Source: an uncultured Cyclobacteriaceae bacterium
GTDB lineage: Bacteria; Bacteroidota; Bacteroidia; Cytophagales; Cyclobacteriaceae
Reading direction: 5' to 3'
NCBI GenBank assembly: GCA_947492745.1
Contig: CANLOE010000002.1
Coordinates: 1-64,000, forward strand
DNA length: 64,000 bases
A program made the position numbers and the translations under genes. Positions 53,013-55,155 of this stretch are shown here, in pieces (the first letter of the stretch is position 1; the number at the start of each line of letters is the position of its first letter). The notes under the pieces were generated by a model, which saw nothing but the letters and a program-made list of their open reading frames with translations, did no database searches and was not told the DNA's origin.

Positions 53013-53104
53013 AGAATGAGGTGAGAGGCAGGCTCTATAACCCTCTGGCAACCCATCATAACACTTTTCTTATGATAAGGTGCCAATTCCTGATCCAATA
53101 TTGG
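53013..53104 (+). ncRNA. SAM-I-type (S-box) riboswitch
   Basis: The conserved pieces are in order: GAGAGGCAGGCTC, CTGGCAACC, a hairpin ATCATAA...TTATGAT, then AAGGTGCCAATTCCTG. These match the S-box core (GGCAACC and AAGGTGCCAAUUCCUG) in the variant form seen in Bacteroidota. S-boxes bind S-adenosylmethionine and turn off methionine/cysteine genes. It lies upstream of the first cysteine-rich ORF, ferredoxin and metZ. P1 boundaries are uncertain. A palindrome ATCCAAT/ATTGGAT follows. Confidence 0.8.
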
Positions 53105-53109
53105 ATACT

Positions 53110-53223
53110 ATGAATATACTGGCAATGAAAAACAATTTACAACATATTTCTTCAACCGTTTTTGAATCAAAGTTTATTGATTTCGACTCTTCTTTACAGG
53201 TTTGTTGTTGTTGTTGCTATTAG
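53110..53223 (+). CDS. Cysteine-rich leader peptide 1 (37 residues, ends in five Cys)
   Basis: A 37-codon ORF starting just after the riboswitch. The first 31 codons are ordinary; codons 32-36 are TGT TGT TGT TGT TGC, then TAT and TAG, so the peptide ends VCCCCCY. A run of identical scarce-amino-acid codons next to a stop is the mark of an attenuation leader. Scarce Cys-tRNA would stall a ribosome here. A convincing terminator between this ORF and ferredoxin is not seen; weak AT-rich hairpins lie at about 53253-53272 and 53288-53305. Unlikely to be a stable protein. Confidence 0.7.
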   Translation: MNILAMKNNLQHISSTVFESKFIDFDSSLQVCCCCCY

Positions 53224-53377
53224 TTTTATCTCCCTACAAATTTTCTAGTATAAAATATAAGTATTTTTTTTGATGAGATTTTCATTAGAAAAGTGATTAC
53301 TTTTTTCTTGGACAATTCTCAATCCAAAATTTAATACCGAAAATCAATCGGCACGTTCGATAATAAATATTACAATC

Positions 53378-53725
53378 ATGGCCATAATTATAACCGATGA
53401 ATGCATTAACTGCGGAGCTTGTGAACCTGAATGCCCCAATACCGCCATCTACGAAGGCGGCGCAGAATGGACCTGGGAAGGCGGCACGGACCTCAAGGAA
53501 GTAGAGCTGGAAGACGGCAGTTCCGTAGATGCTTCTGAGTCCCAAGAACCTTATTCCGATGAATTTTACTATATTGTATCGGGTAAATGTACCGAATGTA
53601 TGGGTTTTCATGAGGAGCCTCAGTGTGCGGCTGTCTGCCCTGTAGACTGCTGTGTACCGGATCCCGATTATGAAGAGACCGAAGAAGAACTGTTGACTAA
53701 ACAGAGTTGGTTGCACGATGCTTAA
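53378..53725 (+). CDS. 2[4Fe-4S] ferredoxin
   Basis: 115 residues. [12 protein letters not shown] near residue 9 and [20 protein letters not shown] bind two 4Fe-4S clusters; the spacing in the second motif is stretched, as in alpha-type ferredoxins. It probably delivers electrons to the sulfite reductase encoded downstream. It is the first real gene of the operon, with a 155-bp leader after the Cys-rich ORF. Confidence 0.9.
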
Positions 53726-53758
53726 TCCGAACTTATAAATTGATCAATCAAAAGCCGT

Positions 53759-54964
53759 ATGAGTCAAGAACATCACTTCGAAACCAAAGCCATTAGGACA
53801 CAGAATGCGAACAGTCTCTTTCGCGAGCATTCTACTCCTATATACATGACTTCCAGTTTCACTTTCGAGGATGCGGAGCATGCCCGTTCTCTATTTGCCG
53901 ATGAACAGGAGGGAAATATTTATACGCGCTTCTCCAATCCTAACACTTCCGAATTTATAGAAAAGCTATGCTTACTGGAAGGTACCGAAGACGGAATAGC
54001 TACATCCTCCGGGATGTCAGCCATGTTTTCCAGTATAGCGGCACTGTTAGAGCATGGCGATCATATACTGGCTTCTCGCTCTGTATTTGGCTCTACACAT
54101 CAGCTGTTGACCCAGGTTTTCCCTAAATGGGGCATTCAGCATACGTATGTCGATATTGACAAGCCCGAAGACTGGGAAGCGGCCATACAGGATAATACTA
54201 AAATGATTTTTGTTGAGACACCTTCTAATCCAGGGCTAGACCTTATTGACCTATCCTGGTTGGGTATTTTGGCCAAAAAACATCAGCTGATACTCAATGT
54301 TGACAACTGCTTTGCGACTCCCTACTTACAGCAGCCGGCACGCTTTGGTGCACATATTGTTACCCACTCGGCCACTAAGTTCATCGACGGTCAGGGTCGG
54401 ACCATTGCAGGCGCCATTTTGGGGGAACAATCTTTAATGGAGAAAATCAGGTTCTTTGCAAGGCATACGGGACCATCACTTTCACCTTTCAACGCTTGGG
54501 TACTATCCAAGAGTTTGGAAACATTGCAGGTACGTATGGACCGACACTGCGATAGTGCCTTTCAACTGGCACAGCACTTGGAGGGGCATGAGGAACTGGA
54601 CTTTGTGAAATACCCTTTTTTACCTTCGCACCCGGCATATGATCTTGCCAAACGACAGATGAAGGCCGGTGGTGCACTGATTACCTTTTCAGTAAAAGGA
54701 GGACTTGAACGAGGGCGTGCTTTCCTCAACCATTTGAAATTACTCTCACTTACAGCTAATCTGGGAGATACAAGGACTACTGTCACCCACCCTGCCTCTA
54801 CGACACATTCTAAGCTATCAGATGCCGAACGAGCAGAAGTAGGCATACTTCCCGGTCTGGTAAGGGTTTCTGTGGGATTGGAGCATATAGAGGATATCCT
54901 AAAAGATATAGAAAATGCATTAGAAGCGACAAAAAAACACGTAACTATTCCTGCAAGTCAGTAG
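53759..54964 (+). CDS. metZ: O-succinylhomoserine sulfhydrylase (MetZ-type)
   Basis: 401 residues of the Cys/Met-metabolism PLP family. FETKAIRTQN at the start, the NVDNCFATPYLQQP strand, and THSATKFIDGQG with the PLP lysine are family features. It makes homocysteine from succinyl- or acetyl-homoserine and sulfide. The substrate (succinyl or acetyl) cannot be told from sequence. It lies 33 bp after the ferredoxin gene. Confidence 0.9.
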   Translation: MSQEHHFETKAIRTQNANSLFREHSTPIYMTSSFTFEDAEHARSLFADEQEGNIYTRFSNPNTSEFIEKLCLLEGTEDGIATSSGMSAMFSSIAALLEHGDHILASRSVFGSTHQLLTQVFPKWGIQHTYVDIDKPEDWEAAIQDNTKMIFVETPSNPGLDLIDLSWLGILAKKHQLILNVDNCFATPYLQQPARFGAHIVTHSATKFIDGQGRTIAGAILGEQSLMEKIRFFARHTGPSLSPFNAWVLSKSLETLQVRMDRHCDSAFQLAQHLEGHEELDFVKYPFLPSHPAYDLAKRQMKAGGALITFSVKGGLERGRAFLNHLKLLSLTANLGDTRTTVTHPASTTHSKLSDAERAEVGILPGLVRVSVGLEHIEDILKDIENALEATKKHVTIPASQ

Positions 54965-54986
54965 TTATAACATATAGATCAAAAGC

Positions 54987-55085
54987 ATGATGAAATTGAA
55001 CTACTTTACTGAAAACTGTTGTTGTCATTGTAGATGTTGTGACTGTTGTTGCAAACAGGCAGATAGGCATTTCCAATACAGGTAA
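54987..55085 (+). CDS. Cysteine-rich leader peptide 2 (32 residues, nine Cys)
   Basis: A 32-codon ORF (MMKLNYFTENCCCHCRCCDC, then CCKQADRHFQYR) with Cys codons in four clusters at residues 11-22. It starts 22 bp after metZ and precedes a strong terminator (55121-55155) in front of the sulfite reductase gene. The order leader, terminator and target gene is the layout of amino-acid attenuation. Cys-codon translation would decide whether transcription enters the sulfite reductase and siroheme genes. No antiterminator pairing was resolved by eye. Confidence 0.75.
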   Translation: MMKLNYFTENCCCHCRCCDCCCKQADRHFQYR

Positions 55086-55120
55086 TTAAGTGGTTTTCCA
55101 TAAGACATAAAAGTAAACCT

Positions 55121-55155
55121 AAAGCCTCTACGGAATGTACCCGTTGAGGCTTTTT
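55121..55155 (+). terminator. Attenuator-type intrinsic terminator before the sulfite reductase gene
   Basis: AAAGCCTC-T-ACGG and CCG-T-T-GAGGCTTT pair with one mismatch, followed by T5. It lies 35 bp after the second Cys-rich ORF and 70 bp before the reductase start, inside an otherwise continuous operon. If active it would cut the operon in two unless relieved, so a regulated attenuator is the best reading. Confidence 0.8.

Follow-up and report, generated by a model that had tools for sequence, protein, structure and literature searches.

A SAM-I riboswitch and two cysteine-rich leader peptides form a candidate two-input RNA control of sulfur assimilation in Cytophagales

Results

A riboswitch, two cysteine-rich leaders and a terminator in one operon

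We analyzed a 64,000-nucleotide stretch of DNA, the window, from an uncultured Cyclobacteriaceae bacterium (assembly GCA_947492745.1, contig CANLOE010000002.1, positions 1 to 64,000 of the forward strand). It contains a sulfur-assimilation operon in which an S-adenosylmethionine (SAM) riboswitch of the SAM-I type is followed by a short cysteine-rich open reading frame (ORF; leader 1), genes for a ferredoxin and a MetZ-like sulfhydrylase, a second cysteine-rich ORF (leader 2), an intrinsic terminator and genes for a sulfite reductase-like protein and siroheme synthesis (Table 1). The riboswitch, at 61.1 bits against a gathering score of 44.4 bits, is the sole Rfam match in the window at the gathering threshold. 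Leader 1 has five cysteines in 32 codons and ends in VCCCCCY directly before the stop at 53223. A preliminary description of this DNA had read the cysteine run, the TAT codon and the stop as we do, and had placed the start at the ATG at 53110, which gives 37 codons; that ATG sits inside the P1 stem of the riboswitch, and relatives favor the ATG at 53125. Leader 2, with nine cysteines in 32 codons, was found as described, and so was the terminator, whose hairpin lies 36 nt past the leader 2 stop and 73 nt ahead of the sulfite reductase ATG. This hairpin stands out clearly in the fold, although a simple consensus scan for terminators missed it. Leader 2 matched no NCBIfam family.

Gene names are used here with some reserve. 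The MetZ-like protein scores under the NCBIfam cut-offs for O-succinylhomoserine sulfhydrylase (best 506 against 522 bits). The reductase is above the Pfam NIR_SIR cut-offs, yet above no NCBIfam sulfite reductase cut-off, and its name is therefore based on its domains and its siroheme-gene neighbors. In relatives, the labels metY, metX, metH, metZ and cysM were assigned by eye from translated starts or motif, unless Pfam, NCBIfam or tblastn is cited.

Table 1. Features of the operon and its leader regions (positions in the window; MFE, minimum free energy; PLP, pyridoxal phosphate).
Feature	Position	Strand	Basis
SAM-I riboswitch aptamer RF00162, AU-rich P1 (class A)	53004..53116	+	cmscan 61.1 bits, E 9.8e-12
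P1 helix 5' strand, predicted partner of 53109-53116	53004..53011	+	MFE fold; P1 extension with two-sided changes in 41 class A riboswitches
P1 helix 3' strand, -16 to -9 relative to leader 1 ATG	53109..53116	+	MFE fold, comparison with relatives, accessible text of PMC6847099
Leader peptide 1, MKNNLQHISSTVFESKFIDFDSSLQVCCCCCY, 32 codons; alternative in-frame ATG 53110	53125..53223	+	ATG and frame conserved in relatives
Five cysteine codons, TGT TGT TGT TGT TGC, one codon short of the leader 1 stop	53203..53217	+	read from sequence
4Fe-4S ferredoxin, YfhL-family model	53378..53725	+	NF033683 97.8 bits, cut-off 86
MetZ-like sulfhydrylase, PLP enzyme	53759..54964	+	PF01053 430 bits; NF006003 506 bits, cut-off 522
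Leader peptide 2, MMKLNYFTENCCCHCRCCDCCCKQADRHFQYR, 32 codons, nine Cys	54987..55085	+	counterparts in relatives
Intrinsic terminator hairpin, AAGCCTCTACGG...CCGTTGAGGCTT, then U tract	55122..55152	+	-15.9 kcal/mol; same hairpin in separate fold
Siroheme/4Fe-4S sulfite (or nitrite) reductase-like protein, 721 aa	55226..57391	+	PF01077, PF03460
Uroporphyrinogen-III C-methyltransferase, siroheme synthesis	57420..58184	+	TIGR01469 239 bits, cut-off 185
Siroheme synthase N-terminal (precorrin-2 dehydrogenase) homologue	59060..59677	+	TIGR01470 113.9 bits, cut-off 62.3

The leader start lies at a fixed distance from the riboswitch

RF00162 is present in 33 of 36 genomes searched, including the genome of the window, and all 74 matches were examined with their surroundings. 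The sequence of helix P1 divides them into class A (41 riboswitches, 5' strand containing UUUAUA) and class B (32, with a strand resembling UUAUC); one, at locus L228, belongs to neither. Of the 41 class A riboswitches, 36 have an ATG 7-12 nt past the aptamer, and none of the 32 of class B does; when the first 60 nt are divided into 6-nt bins, an ATG falls in each of the remaining nine in 0 to 5 of the 41 class A cases. In 35 of these 36 starts the spacing is 8-11 nt. L228 likewise has an ATG at 7-12 nt, with a CCCCC leader. Two consecutive cysteines occur in the last 16 residues of 26 of the 36 class A ORFs, and cysteine makes up 34% of the last 12 residues in 34 class A leaders. Among 20 distinct sulfur loci with a riboswitch, a cysteine leader begins 7-12 nt past the aptamer in 19, and the twentieth (L086) has an 11-residue cysteine-free ORF, MIHLFQAVFIN, 10 nt past the aptamer end at 4436. 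The combination of a SAM riboswitch with two cysteine leaders in one operon, as first proposed, is both present and conserved; the idea that riboswitch and leader 1 are merely layered was abandoned, the leader ATG standing at a fixed distance from P1.

The two P1 types of SAM-I riboswitches coexist in the sampled genomes, the AU-only type with short ORFs and the GATAAG type mostly before metH. A metH-like start follows 25 of the 32 class B riboswitches and none of the 41 of class A. MetH uses no sulfide.

One strand of P1 doubles as a putative translation initiation signal

In Flavobacterium johnsoniae, a member of a phylum without Shine-Dalgarno sequences, the accessible text of one study describes an A motif at -14 to -11, initiation favored by A at -3, -6, -12 and -13, and low base pairing from -20 to +20 (PMC6847099). 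Among the 36 class A starts, A occupies position -14 in 25, -13 in 28, -12 in 31 and -3 in 25, and a Shine-Dalgarno-like motif is seen in none. The A residues at -14 to -12 are part of the P1 3' strand, which reads UAUAAAUU in relatives. Helix P1 extends to a ninth pair in 35 of the 41 class A riboswitches and to a tenth in 29; both sides of this extension vary, its outer positions being occupied by A-U, U-A, G-C and G-U pairs. SAM-I riboswitches with a ribosome-binding site on the P1 3' side are known (PMC2258182). Because the P1 3' strand holds the A-rich initiation motif, bound SAM should make the start of the leader inaccessible to initiation, and the riboswitch likely controls leader 1 translation. 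A leaderless start of leader 1 is unlikely, because the aptamer ahead of it must be transcribed first. The MFE fold of 53000-53226 pairs the leader 1 start with its cysteine run; this is a single-sequence prediction and was not used.

Cysteine runs are in frame and are conserved upstream of sulfite reductase

Taken alone, leader 1 is only moderately unusual, its five cysteines being reached in 22 of 2000 dinucleotide shuffles of the local region, and its case therefore rests on conservation. For leader 2, the expectation that nine cysteines in 32 residues would hardly arise by chance was borne out (0 of 2000 such shuffles). Of the 36 class A ORFs, 20 have a run of three cysteine codons (TGY, where Y is T or C) in register with the conserved ATG, and none of the 36 has one in either of the other frames. 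Among 53 runs of at least four such codons, 52 use both TGT and TGC. In the genome of the window, TGY x4 has 35 matches, 30 of them with loci read. Five of these 30 lie in free-standing short ORFs at two loci (the window locus and one before a cysM homologue), 22 lie beneath open frames of at least 277 codons, one (L057) beneath a frame of at most 133 codons and two, at a single place on C10, beneath none. There is no start codon ahead of the run in three matches, namely L057 and those of the C10 place.

A search of 59 genomes found the reductase in 33, again counting that of the window, and in a number of those genomes cysteine-dense short ORFs lie just upstream of it, often also upstream of the ferredoxin or metZ. 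We surveyed 80 sulfite reductase loci from GTDB genome records, 78 of them with sufficient upstream DNA, for short ORFs with at least four cysteines in eight residues within 450 nt upstream. Such an ORF precedes 30 of the 78 named loci, with 0 of 78 on the opposite strand. The equivalent test with leucine gave 37 on the sense and 18 on the opposite strand, and the weight therefore lies on the strand contrast together with the rarity of cysteine. Positive loci include those of Fulvivirga kasyanovii, F. marina, Marinoscillum furvescens, Cesiribacter andamanensis and uncultured Saprospiraceae; all Spirosoma, Larkinella and Runella loci of the 78-locus list are without a cysteine-dense ORF. In M. 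furvescens DSM 4134, riboswitch, leader 1, leader 2 and sulfite reductase succeed one another, and ferredoxin-metZ is absent from the series. Leader 1 peptides, such as those ending in NININMCCCCCCCC, LMFGCCCCCC and LFSCCCCCC, have little in common beyond the cysteine run. Length and sequence outside the run vary between leaders, and position relative to terminators and riboswitch is kept. Loss of the run in related species had been named in advance as grounds for giving the proposal up; both leaders recur in other genera, with their cysteine runs kept in frame.

A variant leader upstream of sulfite reductase at five loci (L122, L132, L148, L053 and L054) carries the motif (R/K)xACW(F/Y)WCC or one near to it. 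It is conserved beyond cysteine, with Trp codons inside, and possibly reflects a different stall or RNA constraint.

The two leaders differ in how they are followed

Intrinsic terminators of -6 kcal/mol or better follow leader 2 at 29 of 31 loci, compared with 0.85 expected from shuffles. The two without one (L144, L153) are riboswitch-type loci and were dropped from the later leader 2 set (n=29). The second leader of the window, with its hairpin at 55122-55152, is thus positioned to govern sulfite reductase through a terminator, as had been suggested. In 27 of the 29 loci, 5-17 codons separate the cysteine run from the stop. Pairing between a leader segment and the terminator 5' arm surpasses 95% of shuffles at 11 of the 29 (mean z of all 29, -1.44), and in 10 of those 11 the segment begins 6-18 nt past the last cysteine codon. 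Judged by this layout, leader 2 is a putative trp-type attenuator.

The terminator that the preliminary description had placed downstream of leader 2 has no regular counterpart in the leader 1 class. Intrinsic terminators follow leader 1 at 5 of 37 loci against 2.6 expected, which does not count as above chance; of the five, two (L211, L041) are those of a leader 2 lying farther along, and another is the weak candidate of the window itself. In this set, the five class A riboswitches without a leader ATG were excluded and L228 was added. A terminator/antiterminator attenuator at leader 1 was rejected on these counts, with the weak window candidate remaining. Composition was examined in 42 leaders, for which CC was required in the last 16 residues and duplicate peptides were removed. 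The last cysteine is 0-1 codons from the stop in 32 of the 42, and C exceeds G within at most 100 nt past the stop in 38 of the 42, with a median excess of 0.095 (0.008 after leader 2 and 0.028 for class B leaders). A rho gene is present in the genome. C-rich RNA past the stop and the rho gene together suggest Rho for leader 1; Rho-dependent termination there is plausible from sequence and is the least certain step of the scheme proposed below.

Cysteine leaders precede other sulfur genes, with and without a riboswitch

TGY x6 is present in 19 of the 38 genomes sampled from the family. The loci of 24 separate sites were examined, and seven sites are free-standing by the overlap criterion, which also discarded L256, a site that precedes sulfite reductase. 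The seven comprise a ferredoxin-metZ locus, metY-like genes (two), cysM homologues (two), a gene for an NhaC-family transporter and a long TGT repeat without clear meaning (L243). A third cysteine leader in the genome of the window (CCCCCC, ..NVCCCCCCQPLGQERTAI) precedes a cysM homologue (L047:338-3600, minus strand, G000:C94), with JAMM-, SAMP/MoaD- and MoeZ-like genes downstream; the cluster looks like carrier-protein-dependent cysteine synthesis under cysteine attenuation. A cysteine leader also precedes the cysM homologue of L252. The arrangement is therefore not special to the operon of the window, since it stands ahead of metY-like genes elsewhere, and a cysteine leader is not tied to a riboswitch, since leaders without one precede cysM homologues and sulfite reductase.

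The NhaC-family gene (L250; G026:C2:88414, minus strand) follows a Cys6 leader, SGCCCCCCN. Its product matches TIGR00931 at 84.7 bits (cut-off 370) and is a candidate cysteine or sulfur-compound transporter.

Of 96 listed RF00162 matches across the class, 70 were examined (30 chosen by score and 40 hand-picked outside the family of the window), and a cysteine leader lies behind the riboswitch in 5 of these 70. Outside the order, leaders with an ATG at 10, 8, 21 and 16 nt precede metY-like genes at L277, L307, L334 and L335, respectively, and L331 has one with an ATG at 14 nt before a gene of no assigned identity. These cases are quoted singly, as the P1 pattern mislabelled L313 as class A (P1 CTTATC, metH) and L331, L334 and L335 as class B. 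Sulfite reductase is also preceded by tandem cysteine leaders that lack a riboswitch at the Rfam threshold, mostly in metagenome-assembled genomes (MAGs) of Saprospiraceae. An intrinsic terminator separates the leaders in 9 of 11 tandem pairs, the exceptions being L098 (7 nt between the leaders) and L100 (Marinoscillum, of the riboswitch type).

Serial cysteine leaders, each with its own terminator, are seen at L095, L096, L099, L103, L105, L108, L110, L123 and L125. L105 is from a Chitinophagales MAG and L110 from an unassigned MAG, and up to 11 cysteines are consecutive (L099).

Neighboring genes

The YfhL-family ferredoxin is the first gene of the operon. It has a long insert between its clusters, as judged by eye, stays beside metZ and sulfite reductase in several relatives, and is the probable electron donor of the neighboring reductase. 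The reductase (P0003) continues for approximately 177 residues past its NirA-type alignment (window 56858-57391), and a HEPN match below the Pfam cut-off falls at its residues 593-647.

Discussion

We consider that the locus probably encodes a two-input RNA controller of sulfur assimilation, which is the best explanation of the arrangement found. The parts, with their conservation, frame and spacing, and the terminator of the leader 2 class are firmly supported by sequence comparison; translation of the leaders, the response to the ligands, the part played by Rho and the direction of the logic are what we infer from the sequences. Both leaders very likely sense cysteine. The P1 3' strand of the SAM-I aptamer would also serve as the A-rich part of the leader 1 translation start. 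With SAM bound, P1 would be closed and leader 1 left untranslated, its RNA would be exposed, and transcription would end, most likely by Rho. At low SAM, leader 1 would be translated, with an outcome that depends on cysteine: when Cys-tRNA is ample, the ribosome would get to the stop and depart, and the C-rich RNA behind it would again permit termination; when Cys-tRNA is scarce, the ribosome would stall on the cysteine run beside the stop and prevent termination, so that ferredoxin-metZ and the downstream genes would be transcribed. Leader 2 would add a second low-cysteine requirement before sulfite reductase, of the trp type, where a stall on the cysteine codons would free the next leader segment to pair with the terminator 5' arm, and a ribosome moving on would let the terminator form.

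With somewhat less assurance, we favor a more general statement, that the direct output of this SAM riboswitch is the translation of an amino-acid-sensing leader. The result would be a gate for low SAM and low cysteine, with a P1 strand that doubles as the Bacteroidota A-rich initiation motif. In Cytophagales it would stand ahead of metY-like genes and of ferredoxin-metZ-sulfite reductase; other Bacteroidia orders would use it with a looser spacing.

Riboswitch and leader 1 might also be two independent controls in series, the riboswitch acting on transcription through an unseen platform of its own, leader 1 being a separate cysteine attenuator, and the spacing reflecting compact packing. In the same genomes, class B riboswitches have no leader, so SAM control in general needs none, and paired cysteine attenuators without a riboswitch at the Rfam threshold do exist, mostly in Saprospiraceae and with a terminator between them in most pairs. 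We nevertheless regard serial control as unlikely, given the tight spacing in nearly all class A starts, the A-rich motif at -14 to -12 and the lack of intrinsic terminators above chance after class A leaders. Moreover, the ATG is kept in the class A ORFs that have no CC, and it is accordingly the ATG, rather than the cysteine run, that is tied to the riboswitch.

Those same ORFs lend something to a further reading, which we hold to be quite unlikely, in which a SAM-gated short ORF blocks Rho termination by being translated as such, and cysteine codons only slow its translation. For Mycobacterium tuberculosis, the accessible text of PMC12810186 and PMC11260477 does describe small ORFs under riboswitch control, and Rho termination in the case of the Mbox. 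Against it stand the cysteine content of the class A leader ends and the cysteine runs without a riboswitch before sulfite reductase and cysM homologues, which point to cysteine sensing.

That the cysteine-rich peptides act as small proteins in their own right, binding metal or sulfide for instance, rather than as sensors is very improbable. They are in frame and conserved in position, as such proteins would be, but what is conserved is placement relative to terminators and riboswitch and not length or sequence outside the run, and no NCBIfam family was found for leader 2; we rejected this reading on the divergent sequence. A TGT/GTT microsatellite read as cysteine, to which the 22 shuffles that match leader 1 could be credited, was likewise rejected and has next to no probability, because codons are mixed (single-codon runs, 1 of 53), the other frames are empty, and in the survey of 78 loci cysteine-dense ORFs lie on the sense strand alone.

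Several observations weigh against the two-input controller that we prefer. At the translation start, A at -6, the fourth F. johnsoniae determinant, is found in only 15 of the 36 class A starts, and the start in the window fits less well, with UAUGAAUA as its P1 3' strand and G at positions -3 and -13. An ATG at 7-12 nt is missing from 5 of the 41 class A riboswitches, CC from the last 16 residues of 10 of the 36 class A ORFs, and a cysteine-dense ORF from 48 of the 78 named sulfite reductase loci; the compared sequences are related, so that the counts are not independent. The ORFs without CC include two before metX-like genes (L178 and L194, labels by eye) and that of the metY riboswitch in the genome of the window itself (L213), a cysteine-free ORF (MYNTIQFLNTSEYIYLF...) at the usual spacing. 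Cysteine sensing is therefore not obligatory for the class A platform, and coupling of riboswitch and ORF exists without a cysteine code, as at L086 and L213.

Other such points concern termination. Leader 1 of the window is followed by a hairpin of -8.7 kcal/mol with a U-rich tail, the like of which was seen in 1 of 10 shuffles. The bias of C over G is a weak pointer to Rho. Leader 1 cysteine runs are complementary to the RNA past the stop at p<=0.05 in 10 of 42 cases, a weak excess (3 of 29 for leader 2) that could indicate a structure-based mechanism. As for leader 2, antiterminator pairing is not significant at 18 of the 29 loci, and the window is outside the 11 that are: the pairing expected there by the preliminary description proved no better than in shuffles (fraction 0.25).

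Riboswitches and amino-acid leader peptides are usually considered apart from each other. In the present operon the leader peptide appears to serve as the expression platform of the riboswitch, in a compact RNA gate that would read two metabolites of one pathway. The arrangement gives a clear test of riboswitch control of translation in a phylum without Shine-Dalgarno sequences. It also provides a sequence-based candidate cysteine regulon for Bacteroidota, with metY-like genes, ferredoxin-metZ-sulfite reductase, cysM homologues and one NhaC-family transporter, and extends the range of cysteine leaders by one phylum.

Text searches of the literature, which did not cover supplements (among them the leader-peptide candidates of PMC9723704) and left most subscription papers outside their scope, returned no cysteine leaders in Bacteroidota and no case in which a riboswitch feeds into a codon-run leader. 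Every element taken singly has a known relative, and as far as these searches show, the fusion of the elements into one gate is undescribed.

Ribosome-mediated attenuators of the trp and his type consist of control codons, a downstream competing segment and a terminator. Leader 2 resembles them in layout and differs in using cysteine, in its occurrence in Bacteroidota and in sometimes being arranged in series. The remaining comparisons refer to the accessible text of the papers cited. Actinobacterial leaders with cysteine runs (Seliverstov et al. 2005), for which Rho was proposed and no conserved terminator found, are like leader 1 in being short ORFs before sulfur genes with the run near the stop; phylum and genes are different, and here leader 2 adds a terminator (PMC1262725). 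The cysteine ORFs of Canestrari et al. 2020 are leaderless by title, whereas leader 1 starts behind a SAM riboswitch that apparently controls it (PMC8764745). Tandem cysteine codons with an intrinsic terminator, as at leader 2, are described for uORFC-8-2 before cysS in Rhodobacterales, which differs in having two cysteine codons, in belonging to Alphaproteobacteria, in the gene it precedes and in that a riboswitch is not mentioned in that text (PMC8632094). Closer in phylogeny, clues for leader-peptide attenuation before amino-acid operons are given for Flavobacterium psychrophilum (PMC9723704), and short ORFs in long 5' untranslated regions for Bacteroides thetaiotaomicron (PMC7366714); the text of these two reports describes neither a cysteine leader nor a riboswitch-leader pair. 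As in our case, riboswitches of M. tuberculosis act on the start of a small upstream ORF (Mbox/rv1805A, PMC12810186; B12/ppe2, PMC11260477), and Rho termination is reported for the Mbox (PMC12810186); those systems use Shine-Dalgarno sequences and other ligands, and amino-acid control codons are not mentioned in the text of either report. Finally, in translational SAM-I riboswitches (Barrick and Breaker 2007), P1 closed by the ligand hides a ribosome-binding element, as we propose here, with the difference that in the present case the element would be the A-rich motif of Bacteroidota, and the ORF it controls would be a sensing leader and not an enzyme gene (PMC2258182).

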